Part shown: positions 1-64,000 of the stretch, piece after piece | Numbering within the stretch: position 1 is the first letter of the stretch | How the letters are laid out: the number at the start of each line of letters is the position of its first letter | Assembly: GCF_013041615.1 (NCBI RefSeq) | Contig: NZ_JABEPQ010000001.1 | Span: forward strand, 1,356,976 to 1,420,975 | Source: Knoellia koreensis | Lineage (GTDB): Bacteria > Actinomycetota > Actinomycetes > Actinomycetales > Dermatophilaceae | DNA: 64,000 bases | Direction of reading: 5' to 3' | The notes under the pieces: generated by a model | Databases searched by the model: none | Told to the model about the DNA's origin: nothing | The model's input: the letters and a program-made list of their open reading frames with translations, nothing else | Program-made: the position numbers and the translations under genes

Positions 1-1403
1 GCGATGGCCTTGCGCGACTCGGCGCTCGGGTTCGGGATCGACGTGAGGCCGTCCTGCAGGCCCTTGCTCAGCTGGGCCGAACCGGTCTTGAGCTGGTCGA
101 GGCCGGACGCGAGATCGCCGGCACCCTTGCTCAGCTGGGTGGCGCCGTCCAGCGCAGTCTCCTGACCTGCCGACAGCGCGTCGGCGCCCGTGGCGAGCTT
201 GCGGTTGCCTGCCGCGAGGTCCGTGGCGCCGGAAGCGAGCTTCGCGGATCCCGCATGGGCCTGGCTGATGCCGTCGTGGAGTGGTCCCGCGGCGTCGGCC
301 AGCCGGTCGGCGCCGCTGGCCACCTGCTGGGCGCCCGCGGAGAGCTTGGTGAGGTCGTCCGACGCGGCCTGCACCTGGGTGTTGGCATCGCGCAACGGGG
401 TCGCCACCCGGTCCGCGGCCGCCAGCACCCGCTGCACCTCGTCGTCGGTGAACCCGGCGCTGCGCAGCTGCTCCGCGAGCCGGCCGCGCGCCGAGGTGAG
501 GTCACCGGTGATGGTGCTGCTGGCCTTGGCCACCCGTTGGCCGGCCGCCGCCACCTTCGCGTTGCCCGCAGCCACCTGGCTGGCGCCGTCGGCCAGCCGT
601 CGGGTGTCGGTGGGCAGGCTGGCCGTGCGCTGGTCCAGCGTGGCCAGGCCCGACCTCAGGCTCCCGGCTCCCGAGGCGAGCTGGTCGGCACCCGACGCGG
701 CGGCGTTCGCTCCGGTGGAGAGCTCCTTGGTGCCCGCCACGAGCTGCCGCTCCCCCGCGACGAGGTCGGTCGAACCCTTGGCCAGCTGGTGCGCGCCCGT
801 GTCCGCCTTGGCGATGCCGTCGCTCAGCTTCTTGGCTCCGTCCGCCGCCTGCGAGACCTTGTCGTGGATCGTCGTGAACCCGGCCAGCAGCTGGCTCGCC
901 GCTGTCGAGCTCACCTGGGACGCAACGGACTTGGAGACCTCGGCCACGACCTGGTTGGCGATGGTGCGGGCCAGGTAGCCGTTCGCGTCGTTGGTCTCGA
1001 GCTGGAGCTTGGCCTGGCGCGGCTTGTCCTCCGCGCTGGAGGCGAGCGCGGCGGAGAAGTCCGCGGGGACGACCAGGGCGAAGTCGTAGTCGCCCTCCCG
1101 GACGCCGCGGTTCGCCTCCTCGCGGGACACCTGTTTCCACCCGAAGCTGCGGGACTTCACGAGCTCGTCGGCCACCTGGTCCCCGACGTCGAGACGGTCG
1201 CCGTTGGCGAGCGTCGTCCCCTTGTCCTCGACGACGAGGGCGGCCGGCACGCGCGACAGCCCGGCATACGGGTCCTTGTTGGCGTAGAGGTAGAGGCCGC
1301 CGTAGAGCGTCGGGACGAGGACCATCGCGATCACCGCGAGCCGCGGGAGGCGCCCGGCGGTGACGCGACGCAGCTCGGTGAGCGCCAAGCGAATTGCGGT
1401 CAT
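1..1403 (-). CDS. YhgE/Pip family membrane protein (C-terminus outside window)
   Basis: The reading frame starts at the ATG at 1401-1403 and runs off the left edge, giving about 467 residues. The N-terminus (MTAIRLALTELRRVTAGRLP) is followed by a hydrophobic segment at about residues 15-37 and then by YANKDPYAGLSRVPAALVVED, which is typical of YhgE/Pip proteins. From about residue 180 the chain becomes a long run of imperfect 11-residue-type repeats of the form L-x-x-G-A-x-x-L-A-x-G, the extended helical stalk of this family. The missing part should carry the multi-span C-terminal membrane domain related to ABC-2 exporters. Family members are associated with export or envelope functions (the name recalls the phage infection protein), but the substrate is unknown. 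It lies 58 bp downstream of a degenerate ABC-ATPase-like gene on the same strand and probably forms an operon with it. A purine-rich GAGGGGA lies upstream of the start. Confidence 0.85.
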   Translation of the reverse strand, partial: MTAIRLALTELRRVTAGRLPRLAVIAMVLVPTLYGGLYLYANKDPYAGLSRVPAALVVEDKGTTLANGDRLDVGDQVADELVKSRSFGWKQVSREEANRGVREGDYDFALVVPADFSAALASSAEDKPRQAKLQLETNDANGYLARTIANQVVAEVSKSVASQVSSTAASQLLAGFTTIHDKVSQAADGAKKLSDGIAKADTGAHQLAKGSTDLVAGERQLVAGTKELSTGANAAASGADQLASGAGSLRSGLATLDQRTASLPTDTRRLADGASQVAAGNAKVAAAGQRVAKASSTITGDLTSARGRLAEQLRSAGFTDDEVQRVLAAADRVATPLRDANTQVQAASDDLTKLSAGAQQVASGADRLADAAGPLHDGISQAHAGSAKLASGATDLAAGNRKLATGADALSAGQETALDGATQLSKGAGDLASGLDQLKTGSAQLSKGLQDGLTSIPNPSAESRKAI

Positions 1404-1461
1404 GAGAGGTCCCCTCGAAGTATCTGGAGGAGCGCAGCAGGGGAAGAACTTCGTGGGGTAC

Positions 1462-2100
1462 TCATGCGGACACCTCGAGCTCGGTGGTCTCGCCGACGGC
1501 GAAGTGCGGCGGGTCGCCGAGTGCGCGTACGGTTGCGTGGCTGCACCCGACGACGACGGTGAGGCCGGTCGACGCGAGCCGGTGGGCCGCGCGCCACCAC
1601 GCCTCCGGGCTGCCGCCGTGGCGGTCCGGGGCCGCCACGACGAGGACCCGCGTGGTGGCGCGGCTGGCGGCGATGTCCATGAGCAGCAGGGTGCGGTCGG
1701 TGGCGTCCAGCGCCTCGAACCGCTCGTGGGCGTAGTCCTCGAGCCCGTGAGCGGCAAGGACGGCCCGCGTCGCGGCACGGTCCGATGGACGCCCCGCAAG
1801 CGCGAGCTGTTCGGCGACCGCGGAGTGCACGCTCACGGCGTCCTCCGGGGAGGTCACGTCGGGCACATCGACCAGGGACACGTGACGACGGCGCCGCATC
1901 GGGTCGGGGTCTCCGTCGAGGGTCACTGATCCCCCGGCCAGTGGCACACGGCCGCCGATCGCGAGGGCCAGCGCCACCGAGGGGTAGCCGGGGTCGGCCG
2001 CCACGAGCACCGGGTGACGCGGCTCGGCCCGCAGGCTCGTCGGCAGGAGCAGCAGCCCCCTCACCCCTGCGACCTCGACCCGATCGGCGATGAGCTCCAT
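1462..2100 (-). CDS. degenerate ABC-ATPase-like partner of the YhgE protein
   Basis: This 212-residue protein starts at the ATG at 2098-2100 just inside the TetR-controlled intergenic region. Its layout follows an ABC ATPase: an N-terminal strand (VEVAGVRGLLLLP), a stretch where Walker A should lie, then GGRVPLAGGSVTLDG and RRRRHVSLVDV as in the Q-loop region, and later LLLMDIAASRATTRVLVV where Walker B would fall. The Walker A sequence GxxGxGK(S/T) is absent and replaced by ADPGYPSVALAL, and no LSGGQ signature is visible. It is therefore probably not a working ATPase. Its position directly upstream of a YhgE/Pip gene resembles actinobacterial pairs in which an ABC-ATPase-annotated gene sits beside YhgE. 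A scaffolding or regulatory role is inference. The assignment to the ABC fold is moderate. Confidence 0.6.
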   Translation of the reverse strand: MELIADRVEVAGVRGLLLLPTSLRAEPRHPVLVAADPGYPSVALALAIGGRVPLAGGSVTLDGDPDPMRRRRHVSLVDVPDVTSPEDAVSVHSAVAEQLALAGRPSDRAATRAVLAAHGLEDYAHERFEALDATDRTLLLMDIAASRATTRVLVVAAPDRHGGSPEAWWRAAHRLASTGLTVVVGCSHATVRALGDPPHFAVGETTELEVSA

Positions 2101-2122
2101 GGTTTCCGTCCTCAGAACTTTC

Positions 2123-2157
2123 GATACATATCTGTATTCGATACAGGAGTGTATCCT
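2123..2157. promoter_or_regulatory. two tandem TetR operators and -10 element
   Basis: Two 16-bp palindromes stand side by side: GATACA-TATC-TGTATT at 2123-2138 and GATACA-GGAG-TGTATC at 2140-2155, 17 bp centre to centre. The second is a perfect inverted repeat. The hexamer TATCCT (2152-2157) is a good -10 for the rightward TetR gene and overlaps the second palindrome, leaving only 6 bp to the GTG start. The sites also lie 23 bp or more upstream of the leftward YhgE operon, so a repressor bound here could silence both directions. Confidence 0.8.
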
Positions 2158-2163
2158 TAGGCC

Positions 2164-2798: not shown

Positions 2799-2811
2799 CC
2801 ACGCGGCATAC
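2799..2811 (-). repeat. intergenic copy of the GTATGCCGCGTGG motif
   Basis: A full 13-bp match to the window-wide motif, read on the minus strand, lies in the 57-bp gap between the TetR gene and the following rightward gene. It is unpaired here and so cannot form a hairpin alone. Confidence 0.7.
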
Positions 2812-2832: not shown

Positions 2833-3945
2833 ATGCCGAAGGCGCCCGCACTCGTCGACGTGACCCCCAGCCGACCCGCCGACCGCGCCTGGCTCGACGA
2901 GGCGGTGCGGCGCATCCACGCCGATGCCAACCGCAGCGCCGACACCCACCTCGTGCAGGTGCCCGTCCCCGGCCTCCCCGACATCGACCTCTACCTCAAG
3001 GACGAGTCGACCCACCCGACCGGCAGCCTCAAGCACCGGCTCGCGCGGTCCCTGTTCCTCTACGCCCTGTGCAACGGTGAGCTGCGCGAGGGCACCACCG
3101 TCATCGAGGCGTCGAGCGGCTCGACCGCGGTGTCCGAGGCCTACTTCGCCCGGATGCTGGGCCTGCCCTTCATCGCGGTGATGGCGCGCAGCACCAGTGT
3201 CGAGAAGATCGCCCTCATCGAACGCGAGGGCGGCCGCTGCCACCTCGTCGACGACGCCGGCGAGGTCTACGAGGTGGCGCGACAGCTGGAGGACGAGCTC
3301 GGCGGCCACTACCTCGACCAGTTCACCTACGCCGAGCGCGCGACCGACTGGCGCGGCAACAACAACATCGCCGAGTCGATCTTCGAGCAGATGGGGCGCG
3401 AGCGGCACCCCGTCCCCCGGTGGGTCGTCGTGGGCGCCGGCACCGGCGGCACGAGCGCGACCATCGGCCGGTTCGTGCGCTACCGGGGGCTCGCAAGCCA
3501 GGTGTGCGTGGTCGACCCGGAGCACTCCGCGTTCCTGCCGGCGTTCGCCGAGGACCCCGAGGGTGTCGCCAACGCCTGCGGGTCGCGCATCGAGGGCATC
3601 GGGCGTCCGCGCGTGGAGCCGAGCTTCATCCCCGCCGTGGTCGACCGCATGATGCTCGTCCCCGACCCCGCGTCCGTGGCCGCGATGCGCTTCCTCGCAG
3701 ACCGCACCGGGCTGCGCGCCGGCGCCTCGACCGGCACGAATCTCGTTGGGGCACTTCGCCTTGCGTGTGAGATGAAGGCGCGTGGCGAGAGCGGGAGCAT
3801 CGTCTCGCTGCTGTGCGACGGCGCCGACAGGTATGCCGGGACGTACCGTTCCGATGCCTGGGTCACCGAGTGCGGTTGGGACCTCACGGGACACACCGCG
3901 ACCCTCGCGCACGCCTGGGACGAGGGCATCTGGGCGGACGCCTGA
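2833..3945 (+). CDS. PLP-dependent cysteine synthase/desulfhydrase family enzyme
   Basis: The 370-residue product has the fold type II PLP architecture. The Schiff-base lysine is in [11 protein letters not shown] (about residue 67), a phosphate or substrate loop is seen in [12 protein letters not shown], and the glycine-rich PLP phosphate loop is [15 protein letters not shown]. The sequence most resembles the actinobacterial group that includes mycobacterial Cds1, a cysteine desulfhydrase that releases sulfide, rather than CysK or CysM. The reaction could be breakdown of cysteine or synthesis of a cysteine-like amino acid. The start at 2833 is preceded by a -10-like element but no ribosome-binding site. 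It is convergent with a MoaD-like sulfur-carrier-type gene, which may be chance. Confidence 0.85.
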
Positions 3946-5426: not shown

Positions 5427-6353
5427 CTACAGGTCCACGAGGTTGCGCAGCGGCCGCCCCGCGGCATACGCCCCCAGCTGCTCCTGGAGGAGCCGGGTCG
5501 CGCGCGGCGTGAACGCCGTGGATGCGCCGCCCACGTGCGGGCTGATGAGTATGCCGGGTGCGGACCAGAGCGGGTGGTCGGCCGGGAGCGGCTCGGGGTC
5601 GGTGACGTCCACCGCGGCACGGATCCGGCCCGTCTGCAGGTGGCGGACGAGCGCGTCCGTGTCGACGATGCCGCCCCGGGCCACGTTCACGAGCAGCGCA
5701 CCATCGGGCATGGCGGTGAGGAACGCGTCGTCGACGAGGCCGGCCGTCTGCGGCCCCAGCGGCAGGATGAGGATGACGACGTCGTGGCGGGGCAGCAGCT
5801 CGGGCAGCTCGTCGACACCGTGCACCGACGGCACCAGCTCGTCACCCCCGCGTGCCCGGGAGGCCACCGCGGTGACGGTCACCTCGAACGGCAGGAGCCG
5901 TGCGGCGATCGCCCGACCGATCGAGCCATAACCCACGACCAGCACCCGCTTGTCGGCGAGTGCCGGCCAAAAGCCCTGATAGGGCAGCCAGCGCCGATCC
6001 TGTTGTGCAGCAACGAACTCCGGGATGCCACGCAACGCCGACAGCGTCAGCGTCAAGGCAAGCTCGGCCGTCGACGCGTCGTGCACCCCTGCGGCATTGG
6101 CGAGTCGGGCGCCGGCCGGCAGGTGCTCCGGCACACCGTCGTAACCGGCCGTGAGCAGCTGCACGAGCTCGAGGTTGGGCAGCTGCTCCAGCGCCCGGAG
6201 CCGTGGTCCGGCCCCGATGTAGGGCGGCACCACGACCCGCACTTCCTCGGGCCGGCTCGGTGGGCCGTCGAGGTCCCAGACCTCGATCTCGAGTCCCGGC
6301 ACCGGGCCCACCGCCTCGACCCAGTCCTGTCCCGGCAGCGTCACGAGTGGCAT
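5427..6353 (-). CDS. D-isomer specific 2-hydroxyacid dehydrogenase
   Basis: The 308-residue protein contains the NAD-binding Rossmann motif VLVVGYGSIGRAIAARL at about residue 140, and the conserved catalytic elements Arg in NVARGGIVD, Glu in TDPEPLP and His in SPHVGG. It belongs to the family of phosphoglycerate, glyoxylate and hydroxypyruvate reductases; the substrate cannot be chosen from sequence. A longer frame reaches 6422, but the ATG at 6353 begins the family-like sequence MPLVTLPGQDW. TAGCGT on the minus strand (6361-6366) ends 7 bp before it, suggesting a leaderless promoter divergent from the sugar dehydrogenase gene. Confidence 0.85.
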   Translation of the reverse strand: MPLVTLPGQDWVEAVGPVPGLEIEVWDLDGPPSRPEEVRVVVPPYIGAGPRLRALEQLPNLELVQLLTAGYDGVPEHLPAGARLANAAGVHDASTAELALTLTLSALRGIPEFVAAQQDRRWLPYQGFWPALADKRVLVVGYGSIGRAIAARLLPFEVTVTAVASRARGGDELVPSVHGVDELPELLPRHDVVILILPLGPQTAGLVDDAFLTAMPDGALLVNVARGGIVDTDALVRHLQTGRIRAAVDVTDPEPLPADHPLWSAPGILISPHVGGASTAFTPRATRLLQEQLGAYAAGRPLRNLVDL

Positions 6354-6430
6354 GGGTTTCACGCTAGTCCGGGGCCTCCGCCCGGCGTCGCCCGAGTCCA
6401 CGTCGCGGCCGCCATCACGCACAATGGGGT

Positions 6431-7582
6431 ATGCCGCCGAGCCGACGCCGCAGGTCCGTCACCACCGTGGTCGCCACCGCTGGCGCCCTCGCCCTCGCCG
6501 CCTGCAGTGGCGAGACGTCGCGGGCCGGGAACGGCGTGACCTCGCCGTCGATGTCGACGTCGTCGGACCCCACCAGCTCGTCGCCGACGAGCTCCAACGG
6601 CTCGAGAGCGACAACGAACACCCGCAGGTCCACGGTGGCGAGCGGCCTGGACGTGCCATGGGGCATCGCCTTCCTGCCCGACGGGTCGGCGCTCGTCACA
6701 CTGCGCGACCAGGCCCGCCTCGTGCACGTCCGCGACGGCGCCGAACCGGTCACCCTCGGCACCATCCCCGGCGTGCAGCCGGACGGCGAGGGCGGCCTCC
6801 TCGGCGTCGCGGTCTCCCCGGACTACGCCCGCGACCGCCGGGTCTTCCTCTCCTACACCGCCGCCGAGGACAACCGAGTCGTGCGGCTCGCCTTCGACGG
6901 CACCCGGGCGAGCCGACCCGAGGCGATCCTCACCGGCATACCCAAGGCCGGCAACCACAACGGAGGGCGGCTCGCGTTCGGTCCCGACGGCTACCTCTAC
7001 GTCACCACCGGCGACGCGAGCGATTCGGCCCGCGCCCAGGACCGCGACAACCTCGGCGGCAAGATCCTGCGCATCACCCAGGACGGTGCGGCGGCGCCCG
7101 GCAACCCGTTCGGCAACCGCGTCTGGACCTGGGGCCATCGCAACGTGCAGGGCATCGCGTGGGCACCGGACGGGCGCATGTACGCCAGCGAGTTCGGCCA
7201 GAACACGTGGGACGAGCTCAACCTCATCGAGCCCGGCAGGAACTACGGGTGGCCGACCGTCGAGGGACGGGCGGGCCGCTCGGGGCTCACCGACCCGCTC
7301 GTCCAGTGGCCCACCTCGGAGGCGTCACCCAGCGGTATCGCCGTGGCCGACGGCGCCGTGTGGATGACGGCGCTGCGCGGCGAGTCGTTGTGGCGGATCC
7401 CGTTGACCAGCAACGGTGTCGGCACACCGCAGCGACTGCTCGAGGGTGAGTACGGCCGGCTGCGTGACGCCGTGCTCGGACCCGACGGACGGCTCTGGGT
7501 GCTCACGAGCAACACCTTCCGCGGCGACCCGCGCGAGGGCGACGACAAGGTGCTGGCGATCCCGCCGGGGGCCCTCGCCTGA
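6431..7582 (+). CDS. PQQ-type glucose/sorbosone dehydrogenase lipoprotein
   Basis: The 383-residue product starts with Arg-rich residues, a hydrophobic segment and the lipobox ALAAC (Cys about residue 25), so it should be exported and lipid-anchored outside the membrane. A Ser/Thr-rich linker of about 35 residues follows. The rest matches the soluble aldose sugar dehydrogenase/GDSL beta-propeller family: LDVPWGIAFLPDGSALVT, GGLLGVAVSPDY, NHNGGRLAFGPDGYLYVTTGD, NLGGKILRI, GHRNVQGIAW and YGWPTVEG. The family oxidises sugars or sorbosone with PQQ; no PQQ synthesis genes are in this window. The start codon is embedded in a GTATGCCG motif, with CACAAT 5 bp upstream. It is convergent with the response-regulator gene, 5 bp apart. 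Confidence 0.88.
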   Translation: MPPSRRRRSVTTVVATAGALALAACSGETSRAGNGVTSPSMSTSSDPTSSSPTSSNGSRATTNTRRSTVASGLDVPWGIAFLPDGSALVTLRDQARLVHVRDGAEPVTLGTIPGVQPDGEGGLLGVAVSPDYARDRRVFLSYTAAEDNRVVRLAFDGTRASRPEAILTGIPKAGNHNGGRLAFGPDGYLYVTTGDASDSARAQDRDNLGGKILRITQDGAAAPGNPFGNRVWTWGHRNVQGIAWAPDGRMYASEFGQNTWDELNLIEPGRNYGWPTVEGRAGRSGLTDPLVQWPTSEASPSGIAVADGAVWMTALRGESLWRIPLTSNGVGTPQRLLEGEYGRLRDAVLGPDGRLWVLTSNTFRGDPREGDDKVLAIPPGALA

Positions 7583-8262: not shown

Positions 8263-9489
8263 TTATGCCCCGGCCGGGCGCCCGCCGGCCAGGGGTAGGC
8301 GCGCGGACACCTGCCAGCGGTCCGCCTCACGACCCGCGGTCAGGTCGCCGCCGACGGCTTCGGCGCGCGTGCGCATCCCGAGCAGCCCACTGCCACCCCC
8401 GCCCTCAGCAGGCAACGAGTCTGCCCCGATTGCGTTGGCCACGAACAGGTGCAGGGCCTCCTCGTCCGCGTCAATGCGCACATGGCAGGCCTCGCCTGGG
8501 GCGTGGCGCGAGGCGTTGGACAGCGACTCCTGGACGATCCGGTATGCCGCGAGGCCGACGGCCGCGGGCACGTCACCGAGGGTGGGCGGCAGCGCATCCC
8601 ACGTGAGCGGCATACCCGCCGCCTGTGCGGAAGCGAGCAGTGACGCCACGTCGCCGCCGCCGGGCACCGGCGCGACGAGCCGTTCGCCCTCGTCGGACCG
8701 CAGCACGCCGAGCACGCCACGCACCTCGGTGAGCGCGGCGCGGGCCGACCGCTCGATCGAGGTGAACTCCTCTCGCGTTGCCGCGTCGACGTCCGCGAGC
8801 CGGTAGGGCGCCGACTGCGCCTGCACCACGATGAGCGACATGTGGTGCGCGACGACGTCGTGCAGCTCGCGGGCGATCATGCTGCGCTCCTCCAGCACCG
8901 CACGGCGGGCGCGTTCCACCTCGCCGAGCTCGGCCTCACGGGCGAGCTGGCGGCGCGACAGGATCAGCCAGCGCACCAGCAGCGCGACGATGGCGAGCAC
9001 CGCCTGCCCCCACGCCCAGTTCTTGAGGTCGCCGTCCAGCACCACCCCGAAGACCGCGCCGGTGCCACCGATGGCGATGAGCACCTCGGGCCACGGTGCG
9101 CGCAGGCAGACCCCCACGAGCAGCGCGAGCAACACGAGGAAGTACACGACCGGCCACGGCATCGGCCAGTCGGGCAGCGCCGACCGCGAGGCCCAGAAAC
9201 CGACCCCGACGGCGAGCGCCAGCCCCCAGGCGAGCAGGGGCCGGGCGCGCGCCAGCAACAACGGCCCCACCTCCCAGAGGGCCACCACCGGCAGCAGGCT
9301 GGGGGTCACGGCATTGGTCAGCGGCAGGGTCGGCCAGGCGATGGAGAACAGCAGGGCGGCGACCAGCGCGAGGGTGATGTCGACGTTGCGGCCTGCCAGC
9401 CGGCCGGGCAGCGCCAGAGCCCGACCGGCACCGCGGGCGAGACCGCGCAGGCGCTGCCGGCGCGGACGGGGCTGCTTGGTCGACTTCAT
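8263..9489 (-). CDS. sensor histidine kinase (HisKA_3 type)
   Basis: The protein of about 408 residues has five or six hydrophobic segments in its first 190 residues (for example ITLALVAALLFSIAWPTL and VVYFLVLLALLVGVCL), then a linker helix and the dimerisation/phosphoacceptor motif MIARELHDVVAHHMSLIVVQ, whose His is the phosphorylation site. The C-terminal HATPase domain follows, with AAYRIVQESLSNASRHAP and GGSGLLGMRTRAEAVGG. There is no large extracellular loop, so it may sense the membrane or a small signal. An in-frame GTG two codons upstream (9495) is an alternative start. It is the partner of the response regulator immediately downstream. Confidence 0.92.
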   Translation of the reverse strand: MKSTKQPRPRRQRLRGLARGAGRALALPGRLAGRNVDITLALVAALLFSIAWPTLPLTNAVTPSLLPVVALWEVGPLLLARARPLLAWGLALAVGVGFWASRSALPDWPMPWPVVYFLVLLALLVGVCLRAPWPEVLIAIGGTGAVFGVVLDGDLKNWAWGQAVLAIVALLVRWLILSRRQLAREAELGEVERARRAVLEERSMIARELHDVVAHHMSLIVVQAQSAPYRLADVDAATREEFTSIERSARAALTEVRGVLGVLRSDEGERLVAPVPGGGDVASLLASAQAAGMPLTWDALPPTLGDVPAAVGLAAYRIVQESLSNASRHAPGEACHVRIDADEEALHLFVANAIGADSLPAEGGGGSGLLGMRTRAEAVGGDLTAGREADRWQVSARLPLAGGRPAGA

Positions 9490-10320: not shown

Positions 10321-11552
10321 GCGTCGCCGTCGCGACGCGAACTGCGTTGCACCCCAGGGCAGTCGAGCTTCCCGCGCCGCCGCGGGTGTCCGCCAGCATC
10401 GCCGTCCTCTTGGGTGTCGTCGCCGGGCTGTTCCCGTCGCTCATCCCCCATGGACCGATCCTGCGCGGCGTCTCGGTCGGCTTGTTCGTCTTGGCGACCA
10501 CCGCCCTCACCCGTCGTCTCCGACCCGCCGCCCCGCGACTCAGGCCGCCCACACGACGGCTCACCCTCGCCGCCACGGCGGTCGTGCTGCCCGCATTCGC
10601 GTGGTGGGCCATCGGCGTGGAGGCAGCGCAGCGGGCGGCCGCGGGCATGCCGCCGGCGGGCCCCGTCCACTGGGCGGCGGCTGCCTGCGTGGCGGTCGCG
10701 ACCGCCACGCTCCTGCGCGGCATCGGGTGGCTCGCACGCCACTGGCGCCGGACCTGGCGACCGGTCCTCGGTGCGGCCGTCGCGGTCGCCTTCCTCGCCC
10801 CAGCCGTCCCCGTCCAGGCCGCCGGCTCGTCCGGCCAGGTCCTCCAGCAGGGCTCACCCGTGGGTGCCGTGCGGGCGTATGCCGCGGAGCGGGCCGACGA
10901 GTCGCTGGGCCAGCGGGCGGAGCGCGCCGCCGACCTGCTCGTGTCGCGTGGCGGCCTCGCCAAGGAGCACGTCGTCGTCGCCGTGCCGACGGGCTCGGGG
11001 TGGGTCGACCCGGCGGCGGTCACGGGCTTCGAGAAGAGGTTCCGGGGCGACGTGGCCACCGTGTCGCTCCAGTACGCCACCACACCCAGCTGGGTTGCGT
11101 TCCTCTTCCAGCGCGACTCGGCGAACACCGGTGCGCGCGCCCTGCTCGACGCGGTCCTGGCCCGCGTCGACACACTCCCCGAGGCCGAACGCCCGCAGGT
11201 CCACCTCTACGGCGAGAGCCTCGGCGCCCTCGCCGGGCAGGCGGCGGTCAGCGCCCCCGGACGGACCGACCGGCTCTGCTCGGCCCTCTGGGTGGGCTCC
11301 CCCGGCGGCGGCCGGGCCGGTGTCGACCGCGAGGTGCTGGTCAGCAACGCCGACGACCCGGTGGTGCTCGCGACGCCATGGCTGGCCGTTCGCCCGGCCG
11401 AGGCGGACGCTCCGTGGCTGCCCGGTGTCAGCTACGCGCAGGCGGCCTTCGACTTCGTCGGTTCGCTGGCCGTGCCCGAGGGACACGGCCACCGCTACGG
11501 AACCGACCAGGCGCTGGCCATGCCGACCTGCCCCAAACCCTCGCTAGGTTGA
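10317..11552 (+). CDS. membrane alpha/beta-hydrolase family protein (DUF2319-like)
   Basis: The chosen ATG at 10317 overlaps the previous stop. The 411-residue product has about four N-terminal membrane segments (for example VSASIAVLLGVVAGLFPSL, LTLAATAVVLPAFAWWAI, VLGAAVAVAFLAPAVPV), then a large domain. Within it VHLYGESLGALAGQAA gives the nucleophile elbow G-E-S-L-G (Ser), and the ordering RADESLGQRAERA, YATTPSWVAFLFQRD and WVGSPGG fits the actinobacterial alpha/beta-hydrolase family Abhydrolase_9. The C-terminal GHGHRYGTDQA could supply the catalytic His. The hydrolase part should face outside. The substrate is unknown; coupling to a PLA2-like gene suggests envelope lipid or ester turnover. 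Confidence 0.8.
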   Translation: MSVAVATRTALHPRAVELPAPPRVSASIAVLLGVVAGLFPSLIPHGPILRGVSVGLFVLATTALTRRLRPAAPRLRPPTRRLTLAATAVVLPAFAWWAIGVEAAQRAAAGMPPAGPVHWAAAACVAVATATLLRGIGWLARHWRRTWRPVLGAAVAVAFLAPAVPVQAAGSSGQVLQQGSPVGAVRAYAAERADESLGQRAERAADLLVSRGGLAKEHVVVAVPTGSGWVDPAAVTGFEKRFRGDVATVSLQYATTPSWVAFLFQRDSANTGARALLDAVLARVDTLPEAERPQVHLYGESLGALAGQAAVSAPGRTDRLCSALWVGSPGGGRAGVDREVLVSNADDPVVLATPWLAVRPAEADAPWLPGVSYAQAAFDFVGSLAVPEGHGHRYGTDQALAMPTCPKPSLG

Positions 11553-12185: not shown

Positions 12186-12224
12186 CCACGCGGCATACCG
12201 GCATGACGTCGGTATGTCGCGTGG
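12186..12224. terminator. bidirectional hairpin terminator built from the GTATGCCG motif
   Basis: The 15-nt arms at 12186-12200 and 12210-12224 are complementary except at one position that forms a G-U pair on one strand. They flank a 9-nt loop. The hairpin sits between the convergent DUF937 and gatB genes and touches the gatB stop. The left arm contains CCACGCGGCATAC, the reverse of the window-wide motif. No T-run follows. Confidence 0.8.
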
Positions 12225-26039: not shown

Positions 26040-26100
26040 ACCGACTCACCTCTGTGAGATCGAGTGTGCGCCCACGCACACCGCCACGCAACGCCCTGCG

Positions 26101-48752: not shown

Positions 48753-48788
48753 CCCGCGGCATACCAACGCCGACCGGTATGCCGCGGG
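48753..48788. repeat. inverted pair of GTATGCCG motifs between divergent genes
   Basis: CCCGCGGCATACC (48753-48765) and its perfect complement (48776-48788) are 10 bp apart. The flanking genes murA and the PduO-type gene are transcribed away from each other, so this pair cannot be an ordinary terminator. It covers where the -35 of murA would lie. It is the clearest example of a motif pair outside a termination context. Confidence 0.8.
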
Positions 48789-49547: not shown

Positions 49548-49976
49548 TCAGGCGACGTTGACGTTGAAGCCCGGGGGCGAGCTCTCCAGCCAGGTGCGCA
49601 TGGCGGTGTATGCCGCTGGCGCGAGGGCGAGGGCGAAGGTGTCGTCGCCGTGCTGGCACTGCACCGCCACGGCGTCGGGCAGACCCGGGATGGCCACCTC
49701 TGGACGCGTCGGCGGGCCGAGCTCGAGTCGCGGCCGCTCCCACACGCGTGCCGGGCGTGGTGACGGTCCGACGAGGGTGAACCACTCGAGCGTGCTGCCT
49801 GAGAAACGCAGCAGCCCCAGCCGGAAGACGTTCCGGTCACGGGGCTGCAGGGCGCAGAGCATGAGTGGGGCGCCAGCGGACAGGATCCGGCGCCGCACGA
49901 AGATGTAGACCAGGGCCAGGACCAGGAGCAGCACGAGCACGCCGGCGACGATCTCCGCGGACGTGACGATCGACAT
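49548..49976 (-). CDS. DUF2550 membrane protein downstream of the ATP synthase genes
   Basis: The 142-residue protein has one N-terminal membrane helix (IVAGVLVLLLVLALVYIFV) followed by a basic RRRI and a soluble domain with FRLGLLRFSGSTLEWFTLVG and ELGPPTRPEV. It matches DUF2550, a conserved actinobacterial protein that follows atpC in many genomes. Function is unknown; its conserved place suggests a role with the ATP synthase or envelope. It is 23 bp after the atpC stop. Confidence 0.88.
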   Translation of the reverse strand: MSIVTSAEIVAGVLVLLLVLALVYIFVRRRILSAGAPLMLCALQPRDRNVFRLGLLRFSGSTLEWFTLVGPSPRPARVWERPRLELGPPTRPEVAIPGLPDAVAVQCQHGDDTFALALAPAAYTAMRTWLESSPPGFNVNVA

Positions 49977-50332: not shown

Positions 50333-50371
50333 GTATGCCGTGGGGCCAGCCGATACCGGCCGGCCCCACGG
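50333..50371 (-). repeat. atpD-atpC intercistronic hairpin with motif copy
   Basis: A 14-bp stem (50338-50351 with 50358-50371, one mismatch) with loop GATACC stands within the atpD-atpC gap. The left arm overlaps GTATGCCGTGGGG (50333-50345), a variant of the motif. It may slow decay or transcription between the cistrons. Confidence 0.65.
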
Positions 50372-50400: not shown

Positions 50401-51894
<1,494 letters not shown>

Positions 51895-52862: not shown

Positions 52863-52915
52863 GTATGCCGCGTGGCGGCCAAGGTGCCGGGTGCGCCTTG
52901 CGGGCGCACCCGGCA
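52863..52915 (-). repeat. atpA-atpG intercistronic hairpin with motif copies
   Basis: A perfect 13-bp stem (52885-52897 with 52903-52915, loop TTGCG) lies in the 119-bp gap between atpA and atpG. The full 13-mer GTATGCCGCGTGG sits at 52863-52875, and a reversed motif overlaps the right arm (52911-52918). Confidence 0.7.
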
Positions 52916-52919
52916 TACC

Positions 52920-54641: not shown

Positions 54642-54654
54642 GTATGCCGCGTGG
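54642..54654 (+). repeat. intercistronic copy of the GTATGCCGCGTGG motif
   Basis: The full 13-mer lies between atpH and atpA, 19 bp before the atpH stop on the plus-strand numbering. It is unpaired. Confidence 0.7.
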
Positions 54655-57412: not shown

Positions 57413-57877
57413 TCACGAGGCGCTCCTGTCCAAGGTCGAGTCGGCCCCGTCCGCGCGCTCCCGGTAGACCGGAACCCGGGCGCGCCGCCAGGCGCGCATC
57501 TGGGCGCCCTGCCACACGAGGACAGACACGAGCAACGCGATGCCCGCGGCATACGAGTCGAACACCTCGATGCGGCGGGCGATGACCAGGACGCCGAGCA
57601 GGAGCAGCACCTGGGCGAAGTAGACCGCCATGCCGACCGCCATGAACAGCATCGGCTCGGTGGTGTCCTTGACGAACCGGCCGACGATGAACAGGCCGGA
57701 GGCGAAGAACGCGAGACCGATCGCGACGCCGATGAGGCCGGCCACCCCGCCGTCGACGCCGCGGAAGAAGGCGAGGACGATCGAGGTCAGGACGCCTGCC
57801 ACCGCGGTCGGCAGAAGGGCCCCGCGCAGCACCACGTGGAAGAGGTTGTCTCCCTGGGGCGCGGTCTGCTGCGTCAT
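57413..57877 (-). CDS. AtpI-like membrane protein of the ATP synthase operon
   Basis: The 154-residue protein starts at ATG 57877 (MTQQTAPQGDNLFHVVLRGA) and has four membrane helices, among them GGVAGLIGVAIGLAFFASGLF and MFMAVGMAVYFAQVLLLLGVLVI. A Lys/Arg-rich tail ends it. It occupies the atpI place before atpB; such proteins are linked to c-ring assembly or Mg2+ uptake. A frame between 57249 and 57515 has no recognised coding features and is not counted. Confidence 0.78.
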   Translation of the reverse strand: MTQQTAPQGDNLFHVVLRGALLPTAVAGVLTSIVLAFFRGVDGGVAGLIGVAIGLAFFASGLFIVGRFVKDTTEPMLFMAVGMAVYFAQVLLLLGVLVIARRIEVFDSYAAGIALLVSVLVWQGAQMRAWRRARVPVYRERADGADSTLDRSAS

Positions 57878-58004: not shown

Positions 58005-58017
58005 GTATGCCGCGTGG
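58005..58017 (+). repeat. intergenic copy of the GTATGCCGCGTGG motif
   Basis: The full 13-mer lies between the start of the atpI-like gene and the stop of the WecA-like gene, unpaired. Confidence 0.7.
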
Positions 58018-58026: not shown

Positions 58027-59148
58027 TCAGCGGACCTTGCGGGGGCGGTGGCCGGGCGCGGAGAAGCGCGGCAGCCAGAGGGTGAGGACCCAGACGACCG
58101 CGATGGCGAGCACCACTCCCCCGACGGCGAGGCGGGGGTCGCCGACGAAGATGAAGCTCACCGAACCGAGCGAGGCGACCGCAGCCCAGAGCCACAGCAG
58201 CAGGACGGCCCGCCGGTGGCCGTGGCCGATCTGGAGCATCCGGTGGTGCAGGTGCTGCTTGTCCGGCTGCCACGGCCGCTCCCCCCGCCGGGTGCGACGC
58301 ACCACCGCCAGCAGGATGTCGACGAGCGGCAGCAGGATGATCGCCGCAGGGATGACGAGCGGCAGCAGCGTCGCCGCGAGCGGGTTGGCGCTCACCTGGG
58401 TCGGCGTGACGTTGCCGGTGGTCGAGATGATCGCGGCCGCGAGCAGCAGGCCCAGCAGGAGTGCGCCGGAGTCACCCATGAACAGCCGCGCCGGGTAGAA
58501 GTTGTGCGGCAGGAACCCCAGGCAGCACCCGATGAGCGCGGCCGAGATGAAGGTGGCCGAGGAGAACACGTTGGGTGGGTCGAAGGTGCGCGAGATGAAG
58601 TAGCTGTAGACGAAGAACGACAGCGCGGCGATGGCGACCACCCCGGCCGCGAGACCGTCGAGCCCGTCGATGAAGTTGACGGCGTTGGTGCACAGGACCA
58701 CCGCGAAGACGGTGAGCGCCACGATGATCGGCGTCGGCAGGACCGTCACGCCACCACCGATGGGCAGCTGGAGCAGCTGCACCCCGCTGAAGGCCATGAT
58801 CCCGGCCGCGATCATCTGGCCGCCCATCTTGGTCAGCCAGTCGAGCTCGCGGATGTCGTCGATCGCGCCGAGCAGGCACACGATCGCCGCACCCCAGAGG
58901 ATGCCCTGGAGCTCCGGGCCGAGCTGGAAGACCTGACCGAGCCGCGGCAGCTGGCTGGCCACCAGCATCGACGCGGCGAACCCCAGGAAGATCGCCACCC
59001 CACCGAGGCGCGGGATCGGCACCGAGTGCACGTCGCGGTCCCGGACCGGTGTGAACGCCCTGGTGCGCACGGCGACGGCGCGCAGCAGCGGCGTCGCGGC
59101 ATACGTGATGACCGCGGCGACCAACAGGACGAGCAGATACTCGCGCAC
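58027..59148 (-). CDS. WecA-like polyprenyl-phosphate GlcNAc-1-phosphate transferase
   Basis: The 373-residue protein has about 11 membrane helices and the family motifs RDVHSVPIPRLGGVAIFLGF, GAIDDIRELDW (Mg-binding Asp-Asp), NAVNFIDGLDGLAAG and RLFMGDSGALLLGLLLA; the C-terminal loop RPWQPDKQHLHHRMLQIGH carries the His motif. It transfers a HexNAc-phosphate to a polyprenyl phosphate, the first step of cell-wall linkage or polysaccharide synthesis, as in mycobacterial WecA/Rfe. It precedes the ATP synthase genes, as in mycobacteria. Confidence 0.92.
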   Translation of the reverse strand: MREYLLVLLVAAVITYAATPLLRAVAVRTRAFTPVRDRDVHSVPIPRLGGVAIFLGFAASMLVASQLPRLGQVFQLGPELQGILWGAAIVCLLGAIDDIRELDWLTKMGGQMIAAGIMAFSGVQLLQLPIGGGVTVLPTPIIVALTVFAVVLCTNAVNFIDGLDGLAAGVVAIAALSFFVYSYFISRTFDPPNVFSSATFISAALIGCCLGFLPHNFYPARLFMGDSGALLLGLLLAAAIISTTGNVTPTQVSANPLAATLLPLVIPAAIILLPLVDILLAVVRRTRRGERPWQPDKQHLHHRMLQIGHGHRRAVLLLWLWAAVASLGSVSFIFVGDPRLAVGGVVLAIAVVWVLTLWLPRFSAPGHRPRKVR

Positions 59149-59173: not shown

Positions 59174-60454
59174 TCAGCCTCGAGGGTATGCCGGGAAGCG
59201 GGTGACGAGGTCCGTCACGCCCGCGCGCACCTCCTTGGAGACCGCGTGGTCGGGGTCGGCGTCACCCTTGGTGACCGCGGTCGCGATGAGGTCGGCGATC
59301 TCGCGCATCTCCTCGGTGCCCATGCCCTGGGTGGTGACGCACGGGGTGCCCACGCGGATGCCGCTGGCGATGTTGGGCTTCTGCGGGTCGAACGGGATGG
59401 CGTTCTTGTTGAGCACGATGCCCGCGGCGTCGGCGCGGGCCTCGGCGTCGGCGCCGGTGACCTCGATGCCCTGGAGGTCGTGCAGCGACAGGTGGGTGTC
59501 GGTGCCACCGGTCGTGGGCCGGATCCCCTTCTCCCCCAACGCTTCCGCGAGCACCGCAGCGTTCTCGATGACCCGCTTGGCGTAGGTCTGGTACTCGGGC
59601 GTCGCACACTCCTTGAAGTTCACGGCCTTGGCCGCGATGGTGTGCATCTGGGGGCCGCCCTGCATCATCGGGAAGACGGCCTTGTCGAGCTTGGCGGCGT
59701 GCTCCTCCTTGCACACCAGGGCACCAGAGCGCGGGCCGCGCAGCACCTTGTGCGTCGTGAAGGTGACGACGTCGGCGTGCGGCACGGGGCTCGGGATCGC
59801 CTGTCCCGCAACGAGACCGATGAAGTGGGCCGCGTCGACCCAGAAGATCGCGCCGACCTCGTCGGCGACCCGGCGGAAGAACTCGAAGTCGATCAGGCGC
59901 GGGATGGCGGAGCCGCCGGCGAGGATCACCTTGGGCCGGTGTTCCTTGGCGAGCCGCTCGACCTCTGCGTAGTCGATGTCCTCGGTCTGCTTGTCGACGC
60001 CGTAGTGGACGGCGTTGAACCACTTGCCCGAGAAGGACACCTTGGTGCCGTGGGTGAGGTGGCCACCCATCGGCAGCGCCATCGCCAGGATGGTGTCGCC
60101 GGGCTGCATGAACGCGCCGTAGACCGCCTGGTTGGCGCTGGCGCCGGAGTGCGGCTGGACGTTGGCGTGGTCGGCGCCGAACAACGCCTTGGCCCGCTCG
60201 ATCGCGAGGTTCTCGGCCCGGTCCACGACCTCGCAGCCACCGTAGTAGCGGCGGCCCGGGTAGCCCTCGGCGTACTTGTTCGACAGGGTCGAGCCGAGCG
60301 CCGTGAGGACCTCGGGGCTGGACATGTTCTCGGAGGCGATGAGCTGCAGGCCACCGCGGATCCGCTCGAGCTCGTCGACGAGGATGCCGGCGATGTCGGG
60401 GTCGAAGGACTCCAGCGCGCCGTAGTCGGAGCCGTAGAAGGTGTCAGCGCTCAT
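59174..60454 (-). CDS. glyA: serine hydroxymethyltransferase
   Basis: The 426-residue PLP enzyme has the Lys site in VVTFTTHKVLRGPRSGALV (about residue 230) and ANVQPHSGASANQAVYGAFM and IWVDAAHFIGL. It interconverts serine and glycine while loading one-carbon units on tetrahydrofolate. The first 20 residues (TFYGSDYGALESFDPDIAGI) are usual. The C-terminus carries a GTATGCCG copy (reverse) in FPAYPRG. Its start overlaps the TsaC-like gene stop by 11 bp. Confidence 0.97.
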   Translation of the reverse strand: MSADTFYGSDYGALESFDPDIAGILVDELERIRGGLQLIASENMSSPEVLTALGSTLSNKYAEGYPGRRYYGGCEVVDRAENLAIERAKALFGADHANVQPHSGASANQAVYGAFMQPGDTILAMALPMGGHLTHGTKVSFSGKWFNAVHYGVDKQTEDIDYAEVERLAKEHRPKVILAGGSAIPRLIDFEFFRRVADEVGAIFWVDAAHFIGLVAGQAIPSPVPHADVVTFTTHKVLRGPRSGALVCKEEHAAKLDKAVFPMMQGGPQMHTIAAKAVNFKECATPEYQTYAKRVIENAAVLAEALGEKGIRPTTGGTDTHLSLHDLQGIEVTGADAEARADAAGIVLNKNAIPFDPQKPNIASGIRVGTPCVTTQGMGTEEMREIADLIATAVTKGDADPDHAVSKEVRAGVTDLVTRFPAYPRG

Positions 60455-61242: not shown

Positions 61243-62103
61243 TCAGGCGCGGGTGGCGACAGTCGCGCGCGGGCGGCCGTTGAGATCGACGTGGTCGACG
61301 ACGTCGGTCCAGTTTCCGTTGCGGCGCAGCGACTCCGGCAGTGTCGCCCCCTGGGTGTCGGCGTGCTCCATGACGAGGACGCCGCCCGGGCGCAGCAGCG
61401 CCGCCGCCCGGGCCGCGACCGCGAGCGGAATCGCCAGGCCGTCGTCGCTGCCGCCGTAGAGCGCGACCTGCGGGTCGTGGTCGCGCACCTCGGGGTCGAG
61501 CGGCACCATCCCGACGGGGATGTAGGGCGGGTTGCTCACCACGACGTCGACCCGCCCTTCGAGCTCCGGGTATGCCGTCGTGGCATCTCCCAGCGACAGC
61601 TCCACCGCCAGCCCGGTCGCCTCGACGTTGCGCTGCGCCCAGGCGTGCGCCTCGGGCGACAGCTCCACGGCATACACGGTCGAGGTCGGCGCCTCCTTCG
61701 CCACAGACAGGGCGATGGCGCCCGAGCCGGTGCACAGGTCGACGACGATCGGCGACTCCCCCGCCGTCGCGCCGGCAGTGATGGCCAGACCCGCGGCGAG
61801 CTCGGTCTCCGGACGCGGCACGAAGACGCCCGGTCCGACCTCCAGGGTCAGGTGGCGGAAGTGGGCGCGACCGGTGAGGTGCTGCAACGGAACCCGCGCT
61901 GCGCGCTCGCTGAGCAACGCGGCATACCGCTGGGAGACAACGGCATCGAGCTCGTCACCCATCACCACCCGGCGTCGCACCTCGGATGCGTCGACCCCCA
62001 GCACGTGGGCGGCGAGGGCCAGGGCGTCCGCCTCGGGCGACGGCACCCCGGCGTCCCGGAGCGTGAGGGTCGCCGACGCGACCCCCTGCTTGAGGGAGGT
62101 CAC
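61243..62103 (-). CDS. prmC: peptide-chain release factor glutamine N5-methyltransferase
   Basis: The 286-residue protein has [20 protein letters not shown], motif [21 protein letters not shown], the acidic [10 protein letters not shown]-type loop ([14 protein letters not shown]) and the catalytic [14 protein letters not shown]. It methylates the GGQ glutamine of RF1/RF2. It starts at GTG 62103, overlapping the prfA stop by 4 bp (GTGA). Confidence 0.96.
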
Positions 62104-63179
62104 GCGGTCTCGGCCACGGCCGCGAGCCGGGCGGCCTCGTCGGCGTCGACCGCCGACTGGATCACCGGCTCGAGGTCACCGTCGAGCACCGCGTCGAGGT
62201 TGTAGGCCTTGTAGCCCGTGCGGTGGTCGCTGATGCGGTTCTCGGGGAAGTTGTAGGTGCGGATCCGCTCGCTGCGGTCGACGGTGCGCACCTGGCTCTT
62301 GCGGGCCTCGGCCGACGCTGCGGCCGCCTCGTCCATCGCGATCTGGTGCAGCCGGGCCCGGAGCACCCGCAGCGCCGACTCCTTGTTCTGGAGCTGGCTC
62401 TTCTCGTTCTGGCAGCTGACGACCACACCGGTCGGCAGGTGCGTGATCCGCACGGCCGAGTCCGTGGTGTTGACGCTCTGCCCGCCTGGGCCGGAGCTGC
62501 GGTAGACGTCGATCTTGAGGTCGTTCGGGTCGATCTCGACCTCCACGTCCTCGGCCTCCGGCATCACCCAGACCCCCGCGGCGGAGGTGTGGATGCGGCC
62601 CTGGCTCTCGGTGACAGGGACGCGCTGCACCCGGTGCACACCACCCTCGAACTTGAGCCGGGCCCACGGGGCCTCCCCCGGCTCGGGCGTGCCCTTGGCC
62701 TTGATCGCGACCTGGACGTCCTTGTACCCGCCGAGGTCGGACTCGGTCGCGTCGATGACCTCGGTCTTCCAGCCCCGCCGCTCCGCGTGCCGCAGGTACA
62801 TCCGCAGCAGGTCGCCGGCGAACAGCGCGGACTCCTCGCCACCCTCCCCCGCCTTGACCTCGAGGATGACGTCGCGGTCGTCGTCGGGGTCGCGCGGCAC
62901 GAGCAGGCGGCGCAGCTTGTCCTCGGCCGCGGCGAGGTCCGCCTCCAGCCCGGGCACCTCGGCCGCGAACCCCTCGTCCTCGGCGGCGAGCTCGCGCGCG
63001 GCGGCGAGGTCGTCCTTGGCCCCGACCCACGCGTGGTATGCCGCGACGGTCGGTGCCAGCGCGGCATACCTCTTGTTGATGGTGCGCACGGCGTCGGGGT
63101 CGGAGGCGACGGCAGGGTCGGCCAGCTGCCGCTCGAGGGCGGCGTGCTCCTCGACGAGGGCGGCGGCGGACTCCAGCAT
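62100..63179 (-). CDS. prfA: peptide chain release factor 1
   Basis: The 359-residue protein carries the GGQ motif in [20 protein letters not shown] (about residue 240) and the codon-reading region with [12 protein letters not shown] before it. It ends translation at UAA/UAG. Nothing unusual is seen. It follows rpmE by 84 bp with a terminator-like hairpin in between and is coupled to prmC. Confidence 0.97.
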
Positions 63180-63216
63180 CGAAAGCTCCCGGTGGATGGG
63201 TCGTACGGGGAAACGA

Positions 63217-63255
63217 ATGCGCCGGCCCCGACCACAAGGGTCAGGACCGGCGCAT
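63217..63255 (-). terminator. hairpin after rpmE
   Basis: ATGCGCCGG (63217-63225) and CCGGCGCAT (63247-63255) form a 9-bp outer stem with a partly paired inner part (GACC/GGTC). Read leftwards it is followed by T-rich TTCGTTTCC. It lies 8 bp after the rpmE stop and just before prfA. Confidence 0.65.
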
Positions 63256-63263
63256 CGGAAAAG

Positions 63264-63488
63264 CTAGGCGTTCTTCGCGTCGGCCTTCTTGCCGTAGCGG
63301 GCCTGGAAGCGGGCCACGCGACCACCGGTGTCGAGGATCTTCTGCTTGCCGGTGTAGAACGGGTGGCAGTTCGAGCAGACCTCGGCGCGGATGGCGCCGT
63401 CGGCAGCGGTGCTGCGGGTCTCGAACGTGTTGCCACAGGTACAGGTCACCGTGGTGGCGACGTACTCGGGGTGGATGTCCTTCTTCAC
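63264..63488 (-). CDS. rpmE: 50S ribosomal protein L31 (zinc-binding form)
   Basis: The 74-residue protein starts at GTG 63488 ([20 protein letters not shown]) after AAGGAG, with zinc cysteines CTCGNTFE and [13 protein letters not shown]. It is the Cys-containing (zinc) L31 type. It belongs to the large ribosomal subunit at the bridge to the small subunit. A longer frame to 63581 has no ribosome-binding site. Confidence 0.96.
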
Positions 63489-63615
63489 TGCGTGCTCCTT
63501 GGGATTCGTCCGGGTCGGCGGGCCCATCGCGTCTCGATGCAGACCCCGCATGTCAGGCATGCCAGCCGTGAACCGGTCCAACTAGGGAAGTGTGCCAGAA
63601 AGGTGGCACGTCCTC

Positions 63616-64000
63616 CTAAACGGCAGGGACGTGCTCGTCATTCCCCGCCGGATCCGCGGCATCGGGCGTGACCAGCGGTAGCCGGATGCGCACGGTGGTC
63701 CCCTCGCCCTCGGTCGACTCCAGCGTCAGCTGGCCGTCGTGCCCCTCGACGATCTGGCGCACGATGGCCAACCCGAGACCGGTGCCCGGGATCGCGGCCG
63801 CGGTGGCGTTGCTGGCGCGGAAGAACCGGCCGAAGAGCTGGTCGAGGTCGGCCGCGGGGATGCCGATGCCCGAGTCGGCGACCGTGACCACGACGTCGTT
63901 GCCGTCCCTGACCGCCGTCAGCTCGACGCGCCCGCCAGCGGGGGTGAACTTGACCGCGTTGGAGCCCAGGTTGAGCAGGGCCCGCTCGAGGTGGCGTGGC
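63616..64000 (-). CDS. sensor histidine kinase, C-terminal ATPase domain (N-terminus outside window)
   Basis: The stop is at 63616 and the frame is open to the right edge. The visible 128 residues include the N box LLNLGSNAVKFTPAGG, the G1 box VTVADSGIGIPAADLD, the F box LFGRFFRASNA and the G2 box GTGLGLAIVRQIVEGHDG. It is the HATPase_c domain of a histidine kinase. The C-terminal tail (PDAADPAGNDEHVPAV) is short. The gene lies upstream of rpmE and is not part of the ribosomal genes. Confidence 0.9.
   Translation of the reverse strand, partial: PRHLERALLNLGSNAVKFTPAGGRVELTAVRDGNDVVVTVADSGIGIPAADLDQLFGRFFRASNATAAAIPGTGLGLAIVRQIVEGHDGQLTLESTEGEGTTVRIRLPLVTPDAADPAGNDEHVPAV

Follow-up and report, generated by a model that had tools for sequence, protein, structure and literature searches.

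An abundant octamer of Knoellia koreensis and its family as a candidate self-DNA recognition word, evenly spaced along each strand

The octamer GTATGCCG is scattered over both strands of a 64,000-base stretch of the genome of Knoellia koreensis (Dermatophilaceae, Actinomycetota; contig NZ_JABEPQ010000001.1, positions 1,356,976 to 1,420,975; hereafter the window), and its over-representation is certain. Based on comparative analysis, we propose that this word, together with a softer extension, GGTATGCCGCGTGG, may act as a self-DNA recognition sequence of the type represented by the DNA uptake sequence (DUS) and the uptake signal sequence (USS), here in a Gram-positive family; we give this reading a probability of roughly 0.6. 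The likeness to DNA uptake sequences was claimed in an original prediction made from the window alone, and it stands up on most points open to a test by sequence, namely density, balanced strands, an extended consensus, converging pairs, dialects, genomes of mixed dialect and the presence of comEA-comEC. The strand-specific even spacing of the copies, which that prediction had not noticed, is new.

Abundance and form of the word

We counted exactly 62 copies in the window, 30 on the plus strand and 32 on the minus strand, the numbers originally read by eye for GTATGCC, which is followed by G in 62 of 62 cases. By chance only a handful had been expected; 100 dinucleotide shuffles contained 0.99 copies on average and never more than 5. 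Copies had been placed in both coding and intergenic DNA, and indeed 44 of the 62 lie inside predicted genes and 18 outside, with flanking sequence that varies from copy to copy. One position needed correction: in a pair given as an example the plus copy at 8542 is right, and the minus copy placed at 8609 starts at 8608. The excess also survives a genome-wide count. The genome (4,282,418 bases in 15 contigs) contains 3,986 copies (1,983 plus and 2,003 minus), 35 times the 114 copies of a reversed-pattern control. In 464 kb of this genome, comprising the window and 20 further stretches, Markov models with the motif masked predict 3.0 (order-3) or 4.7 (order-2) copies, compared with 420 observed; this corresponds to a 90-140-fold excess and a density of about 0.9 per kb. 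The strand ratio is near 1:1 in all 21 stretches (chi2 5.4, 21 df), and in 110 genomes with at least 300 copies the strand z has a mean of -0.07 (sd 0.77). No strand excess of the type known from FtsK-orienting polar sequences (KOPS) or architecture-imparting sequences (AIMS) was found in any of the 21 stretches, nor genome-wide.

Outside genes the word lengthens to about 14 bases, approximately GGTATGCCGCGTGG, with a core and softer flanks. The consensus of 101 intergenic sites is G-GTATGCCG-CGTGG, where the preceding G is present in 74% of sites and the following C, G, T, G and G in 61, 77, 51, 72 and 65%, respectively; the same consensus appears in 61 unpaired sites. With gene boundaries taken from our own gene caller, 102 of the 420 sites fall outside predicted genes, at 1.77 per kb compared with 0.78 per kb inside. 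Genic sites mostly read Tyr-Ala in the sense frame, which uses the rare codon TAT, or Ala-Tyr in the antisense frame.

Close pairs of sites have a preferred arrangement. Among 483 sites in 544 kb, neighbors no more than 60 bp apart comprise 19 converging, 5 diverging and 1 same-strand pair. Folding of five close pairs (six stretches, as one pair was folded on both strands) gave four folds of -41 to -50 kcal/mol with z from -6.9 to -11.8. The other two folds are weaker relative to shuffles: the pair 52863/52911 has a predicted z of -3.5 and its two copies are not cleanly paired, and the pair 63036/63062 has a z of -2.0. The earlier remark on paired copies in intergenic hairpins agrees with the excess of converging pairs and with the strength of some predicted folds. 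T-tails were not evident at converging pairs in the few sequences inspected.

Strand-specific spacing and turnover of sites

We compared the strands of consecutive sites. Of 433 pairs of neighbors in the K. koreensis genome that are more than 60 bp apart, 294 have one member on each strand (p 7e-14). This alternation is strong up to 1.5 kb, gone beyond that distance, and absent at lags 2-4. Gaps between same-strand sites have a coefficient of variation (CV) of 0.65, compared with 0.94 +/- 0.04 for random placement, and 7% of them are shorter than 500 bp, compared with 21%. Opposite-strand neighbors, among them the hairpin pairs, are not depleted and, if anything, lie nearer to each other than random placement would give. 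Alternation was not significant for any of four control octamers from this genome, one of which yielded just 4 pairs. Within 60-1500 bp, we observed 21 same-strand and 76 opposite-strand neighbors in congener loci, 46 and 100 in other GTATGCCG loci of the family, and 26 and 56 in a genome (G178) that uses the related word GGATGCCG. These tests drew on 16 of 80 named loci, picked for carrying the word, some of which belong to Pedococcus or Phycicoccus and are not wholly outside the genus of K. koreensis. Several small sets are not significant alone (same/opposite 9/16 in G003, 8/15 in G044 and 3/6 in locus L165). Results for CGAAGGGG(G) are mixed: the 8-mer gave 29 same and 34 opposite in four sources; in G103 the ratios were 38/53 with the 8-mer and 17/29 with the 9-mer, neither significant; and the 9-mer in all loci gave 22/44 (p 0.009) with a same-strand CV that is not reduced. 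A word recognized independently of direction should repel its copies on both strands, and only same-strand repulsion is seen; therefore, the word probably has a single reading polarity, its reach being 1-2 kb.

We next consider conservation, for which the window and one further stretch of the same genome (L069) were aligned with four congeners at about 81% identity; their common reference means that the four comparisons are not independent. Of 39, 56, 54 and 52 alignable sites, 20, 32, 30 and 26 (50-57%), respectively, retain the octamer, compared with 7.7, 11.5, 10.6 and 11.0 (about 20%) predicted from other octamers matched for local identity and frame. The rare codon TAT tells the same story: over the four comparisons it is retained in 51 of 86 cases inside the word and in 3 of 26 elsewhere, and 18-24 of the 23-31 alignable TAT codons per comparison fall within the word. 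Where a congener lacks a K. koreensis site, it has a new one on the same strand within 1 kb in 20 per 85 cases, compared with 9 per 110 where the site is kept (p 0.008, a value that treats the four congeners as independent, which is not quite true). New opposite-strand sites within 1 kb number 9 and 11, respectively. Loss of a site thus tends to be offset by a new one close by, and only on the strand that lost it; this replacement together with the same-strand spacing makes directional reading probable. Within the 544 kb sample, the two longest runs free of sites measure at least 10.5 and at least 7.7 kb, both reaching the end of the sampled stretch. In them lie a serine recombinase and a phage integrase, which would suit foreign DNA. 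We conclude that the word is very likely functional and maintained by selection or drive.

Dialects in the family and competence genes

We counted the word and its variants in 186 genomes from 53 genera of the family, taking at least 300 copies as our own threshold for a strong carrier and tallying counts of 150-299 apart. Of these genomes, 104 have at least 300 copies of GTATGCCG (up to 4,724) and belong to no other class, seven are weak carriers (150-299), and 46 have none of the four words. Five genomes use mainly GGATGCCG (3,619-4,480 copies), and another five are mixed: GTATGCCG and GGATGCCG occur together in G046 (1,217 + 2,195) and G047 (1,189 + 2,099), and GTATGCCG and GAATGCCG in G057 (1,025 + 3,135), G056 (2,311 + 730) and G059 (3,097 + 388). 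The background of GGATGCCG is high, at 241-1,336 copies in the family outside its five genomes and the two mixed ones, and GAATGCCG is graded, with 352 copies in G097 (control 51) and 200-270 in several others. The fourth word, CGAAGGGGG, is present in 797-1,939 copies in all 19 genomes of two genera and in 11-80 copies in the other 167. Two named loci are rich in CGAAGGGG, with 11 copies in 21 kb of Janibacter limosus and 18 in 21 kb of Marihabitans asiaticum. While GGATGCCG and GAATGCCG are one-base dialects of GTATGCCG, CGAAGGGGG is a wholly different word. Apart from the five mixed genomes, dialects follow genera. Single species without the word occur within the word-bearing genera g33 (G094, 19 copies), g4 (G018, 37) and g42 (G124, 50), so that loss or replacement can be quick. 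Among 362 sampled genomes from 19 other families of the order no comparable enrichment was found; the top GTATGCCG count was 180, with a control of 195, and in a few genomes a low count is still three to four times the control (for example, 88 vs 29 in G195).

Other words were recorded along the way. In G093 (L093, L094, L238 and L247) we observed 47 copies of CGATGCGG(T) in 40 kb, where 8.8 are expected; this might be a further dialect, and CGATGCGG shows no strand alternation in that genome (23/25 same/opposite). Several-fold enrichment in sampled stretches was found for GTACGCCG (G012, G025 and G100), CGTACGCC (G024) and GAGGTCTAC (G018). The 14-base GTCGAGTAGGTGCG of G184 (L049 and L050) occurred about 15 times in the first 40 kb sampled; a further 40 kb added none, and we rejected it as a dialect and consider it a local repeat. 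Both TGGTACAC (L155, Nostocoides sp. F2B08) and GGACAACC (L202, Cellulomonas edaphi) sit in longer repeats and were dropped.

A check for competence genes found ComEC, ComEA and Tad-like clusters in the K. koreensis genome, and also in motif-free relatives. In K. koreensis comEA adjoins comEC, and four loci have a Tad-like gene order (the ATPase and one TadE are confirmed by Pfam, other names being partly our own). One of these loci adjoins a DECH helicase (TIGR03817/TIGR03819). Among named organisms, Pedococcus bigeumensis and Phycicoccus sp. Root101 have the closest relatives of a Tad ATPase of the genome (90% identity), so the host is probably a Pedococcus or something close to it within the Dermatophilaceae. 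Transformation of Micrococcus luteus depends on a tad cluster as well as on comEA/comEC, and the main text of that study nowhere uses the term 'uptake sequence' (PMC8467076).

Presence or absence of ComEC was rejected as an explanation for the distribution of the word, with matches in 180 of 186 genomes and the six misses all among motif-bearing genomes, mostly incomplete or fragmented assemblies. The Tad-1 cluster was rejected as a specificity locus, being present in motif-free G153, and its minor pilins, where called, are no more diverged in Janibacter-type loci than in others, as judged by eye and by identity. The Tad cluster in the helicase neighborhood was rejected as well: TadA was present in all 17 loci read, whether the genome has a dialect or is free of the motif, and visual comparison of the Flp, TadE-like and Rv3654c-like frames in the 13 loci where Flp was matched showed no dialect mark (G001, G010, G015 and G093 have no Flp match at this locus).

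Candidate mechanism and rival explanations

How could such a word be used and maintained? Competent cells might capture free DNA by means of a Tad-type pilus and ComEA. A putative surface component would bind the word in one polarity and favor entry through ComEC of one strand together with the flank on one side of the word. Recombination of imported fragments would then restore the word to the chromosome, keeping one copy per strand about every 2 kb, and changes in the receptor could give rise to dialects, mixed genomes being transitions. In its specific form, the proposal is that this is a self-word in Actinomycetota read in one polarity, with the strands marked independently and evenly so that every 2 kb or so could be imported or recombined from either side, and that a receptor (Tad-pilus-associated or other) unrelated to ComP would have changed to produce at least four dialects. 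Judging from the sequences, we consider the chances of this specific form evenly balanced.

The proposed function can be compared with known systems. Sequence-specific uptake is known mainly from two Gram-negative families; a 2016 review credits it to several species of Pasteurellaceae and Neisseriaceae (PMC5031613). The DUS of Neisseriaceae (ATGCCGTCTGAA and its dialects, with the receptor ComP) likewise occurs in thousands of copies and in dialects. Eight are described, set apart by single-base changes and distributed by species group; Simonsiella muelleri carries two at once, and certain relatives lack the DUS altogether (PMC3630211). Here, unlike there, the host is Gram-positive, spacing is even on each strand, one dialect (CGAAGGGGG) has a wholly different sequence, and no ComP-type pilin was found in the K. 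koreensis genome, so we do not assign the word to the ComP-DUS system. The two words share only ATGCCG, probably by coincidence, and are otherwise not evidently related. The USS of Pasteurellaceae (AAGTGCGGT) resembles GTATGCCG in its abundance (about 1,470 copies in a Haemophilus species) and in having two dialect groups, with ComN/PpdA as its proposed receptor (PMC12616744). It differs in word, phylum and pilus type, and in an uptake that is reported to be independent of orientation (PMC1939737). Both DUS and USS are found as inverted pairs in hairpins, and such pairs of uptake words serve in terminators (PMC1852404); inverted pairs are present here too, some with strong predicted folds. Among the listed matches in the openly licensed literature (titles and beginnings of abstracts), we found no such word described in Actinomycetota, in agreement with the original prediction.

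A number of observations weigh against self-DNA recognition. Since classical uptake is reported to be independent of orientation (PMC1939737), strand-specific spacing is not predicted by uptake itself, and same-strand repulsion of uptake sequences is not reported in the available parts of PMC1939737 and PMC2346458. For CGAAGGGGG, regular same-strand spacing is at best weak. Identity beside the sites is 0.77-0.79, compared with 0.81 overall, and is therefore not raised; recent cross-species import is not visible. Near-miss octamers show no general excess (319 vs 288 expected), though some with changes at positions 1 and 2 exceed expectation (GGATGCCG 78 vs 41, GAATGCCG 14 vs 5-7, and CTATGCCG 11 vs 3). 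On the side of the machinery, ComEC, ComEA and Tad genes are present in motif-free genomes too (ComEC in 46 of 46), so that these genes do not predict the word and cannot alone be its reader. A type IVa pilin (PF07963) was not found in K. koreensis at E<=1, a search that very divergent pilins could escape; matches at E<=1 were obtained in 3 of 15 genomes searched (G062, G094 and G096; one over cut-off). The Tad-1 minor pilins, where called (many loci were missed by the gene caller), show no obvious dialect-specific change, and the aligned C-terminal part of ComEA is alike in 19 of 19 loci, with no obvious dialect mark.

The strand-specific spacing makes a Chi-like signal a serious rival. Such a signal would be a strand-specific octamer that switches a helicase-nuclease, other than RecBCD and perhaps AdnAB, to recombination mode at broken or imported ends; an equal need from both DNA ends would then produce balanced strands with separate even spacing on each. 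This explanation, which we regard as possible and yet rather unlikely, is in line with same-strand-only spacing and compensation, both of which point to reading in one polarity. It also accommodates a word that is an asymmetric, family-specific octamer with variants and that is missing from the two sampled stretches with an integrase or a recombinase. Known Chi sites, the octamers of RecBCD/AddAB, are asymmetric too, vary between lineages, are read in one polarity, as this word probably is, and are commoner in core than in acquired DNA (PMC8022716). However, Escherichia coli has a Chi site only once in about 5 kb, and Chi lies on the leading strand there (PMC8022716), whereas the present word is five times denser, at about 1 per kb, and is not polarized in any of the 21 stretches. 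Neither does it follow RecC, which was matched in 89 of 186 genomes without tracking the word: 10 of 10 congeners have no RecC match and yet 625-2551 copies, and the motif-poor genomes G011, G018, G048 and G094 have one. A 14-base extension and converging pairs are, to our knowledge, not features of Chi. The original argument that balanced orientation speaks against KOPS and Chi is therefore sustained, and we disfavor RecBCD-Chi on strand ratio and RecC independence, and KOPS and AIMS on strand ratio. RecBCD itself appears patchy within one genus, as K. koreensis has a RecC match (C10:305703-306716) and none of the 10 congeners searched does.

The remaining explanations fit less well. Cyanobacterial HIP1 (highly iterated palindrome 1) is a very abundant octamer tied to methyltransferases, and the word could similarly be created and kept by methyltransferase recognition combined with biased mismatch repair. 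In some relatives HIP1 is replaced by other words with a matching methyltransferase (PMC4390886), which recalls the dialect replacement seen here. Nonetheless, HIP1 is a palindrome and GTATGCCG is not, and repair drive gives no evident reason for strand-specific spacing or for compensation, which leaves this origin improbable. We find it very improbable that the word is a binding site of a nucleoid or chromosome-organizing protein: spacing along each strand is even, as such a role would have it, but positions on opposite strands are not spaced apart, and absence from part of the family, with changes of word between and within genera, would be odd for such a protein. A by-product of codon or oligonucleotide usage, or a dispersed repeat, can practically be dismissed. 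Genic copies do lie mostly in Tyr-Ala or Ala-Tyr frames, yet the word is commoner outside genes, uses a rare codon, exceeds the masked expectation by two orders of magnitude at the upper end of its range, and has flanks that differ between copies.

If self-DNA recognition is indeed its role, the word would add one more independent case, this time from a Gram-positive family that has another type of pilus and is rich in dialects and transition genomes. Comparison of these systems could address why such words evolve, how receptor and word change together, and whether they keep species apart. The strand-specific spacing offers a new way to study from which side DNA is imported, and including the word in constructs might ease transformation of these environmental actinobacteria.

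Copies in the window and neighboring repeats

Table 1. Exact matches to GTATGCCG on both strands, in window numbering, and the hairpin formed by one pair
Feature	Position	Strand	Remark
GTATGCCG copy	1262..1269	-	
GTATGCCG copy	2804..2811	-	
GTATGCCG copy	3831..3838	+	
GTATGCCG copy	5462..5469	-	
GTATGCCG copy	5549..5556	+	
GTATGCCG copy	6429..6436	+	
GTATGCCG copy	6934..6941	-	
GTATGCCG copy	8542..8549	+	
GTATGCCG copy	8608..8615	-	
GTATGCCG copy	10877..10884	+	
GTATGCCG copy	12191..12198	-	
GTATGCCG copy	14797..14804	+	
GTATGCCG copy	16094..16101	-	
GTATGCCG copy	16230..16237	+	
GTATGCCG copy	17840..17847	-	
GTATGCCG copy	18395..18402	-	
GTATGCCG copy	18527..18534	+	
GTATGCCG copy	19102..19109	-	
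GTATGCCG copy	20719..20726	-	
GTATGCCG copy	20876..20883	+	
GTATGCCG copy	21456..21463	-	
GTATGCCG copy	22097..22104	+	
GTATGCCG copy	23666..23673	+	left arm of intergenic hairpin with 23680
GTATGCCG copy	23680..23687	-	right arm of intergenic hairpin with 23666
GTATGCCG copy	25504..25511	+	
GTATGCCG copy	26034..26041	-	
GTATGCCG copy	27227..27234	-	
GTATGCCG copy	28860..28867	-	
GTATGCCG copy	29085..29092	+	
GTATGCCG copy	29636..29643	-	
GTATGCCG copy	31445..31452	+	
GTATGCCG copy	32587..32594	-	
GTATGCCG copy	32895..32902	+	
GTATGCCG copy	36002..36009	-	
GTATGCCG copy	36441..36448	+	
GTATGCCG copy	37694..37701	-	
GTATGCCG copy	40193..40200	+	
GTATGCCG copy	40508..40515	+	
GTATGCCG copy	40927..40934	-	
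GTATGCCG copy	43490..43497	+	
GTATGCCG copy	43961..43968	+	
GTATGCCG copy	44670..44677	-	
GTATGCCG copy	46744..46751	-	
GTATGCCG copy	46821..46828	+	
GTATGCCG copy	47522..47529	-	
GTATGCCG copy	48757..48764	-	diverging pair with 48777
GTATGCCG copy	48777..48784	+	diverging pair with 48757
GTATGCCG copy	49608..49615	+	
GTATGCCG copy	50333..50340	+	
GTATGCCG copy	51007..51014	-	
GTATGCCG copy	52863..52870	+	converging pair with 52911
GTATGCCG copy	52911..52918	-	converging pair with 52863
GTATGCCG copy	54642..54649	+	
GTATGCCG copy	57547..57554	-	
GTATGCCG copy	58005..58012	+	
GTATGCCG copy	59097..59104	-	
GTATGCCG copy	59186..59193	+	
GTATGCCG copy	61570..61577	+	
GTATGCCG copy	61668..61675	-	
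GTATGCCG copy	61920..61927	-	
GTATGCCG copy	63036..63043	+	converging pair with 63062
GTATGCCG copy	63062..63069	-	converging pair with 63036
Hairpin, two converging copies between two predicted minus-strand genes	23655..23698		-41.1 kcal/mol on the plus strand, z -9.9

The window also contains two intergenic inverted repeats, at 26813-26869 and 25554-25661, which recur at many places in the K. koreensis genome. One is GAGGTAAAAACGCCGG...CCGGCGTTTTTACCTC and lies between convergent genes, the other is CGAGTCTTCGGAAGAAT...ATTCTTCCGAAGACTCG, and neither contains the octamer; both are probably multi-copy bidirectional terminators.

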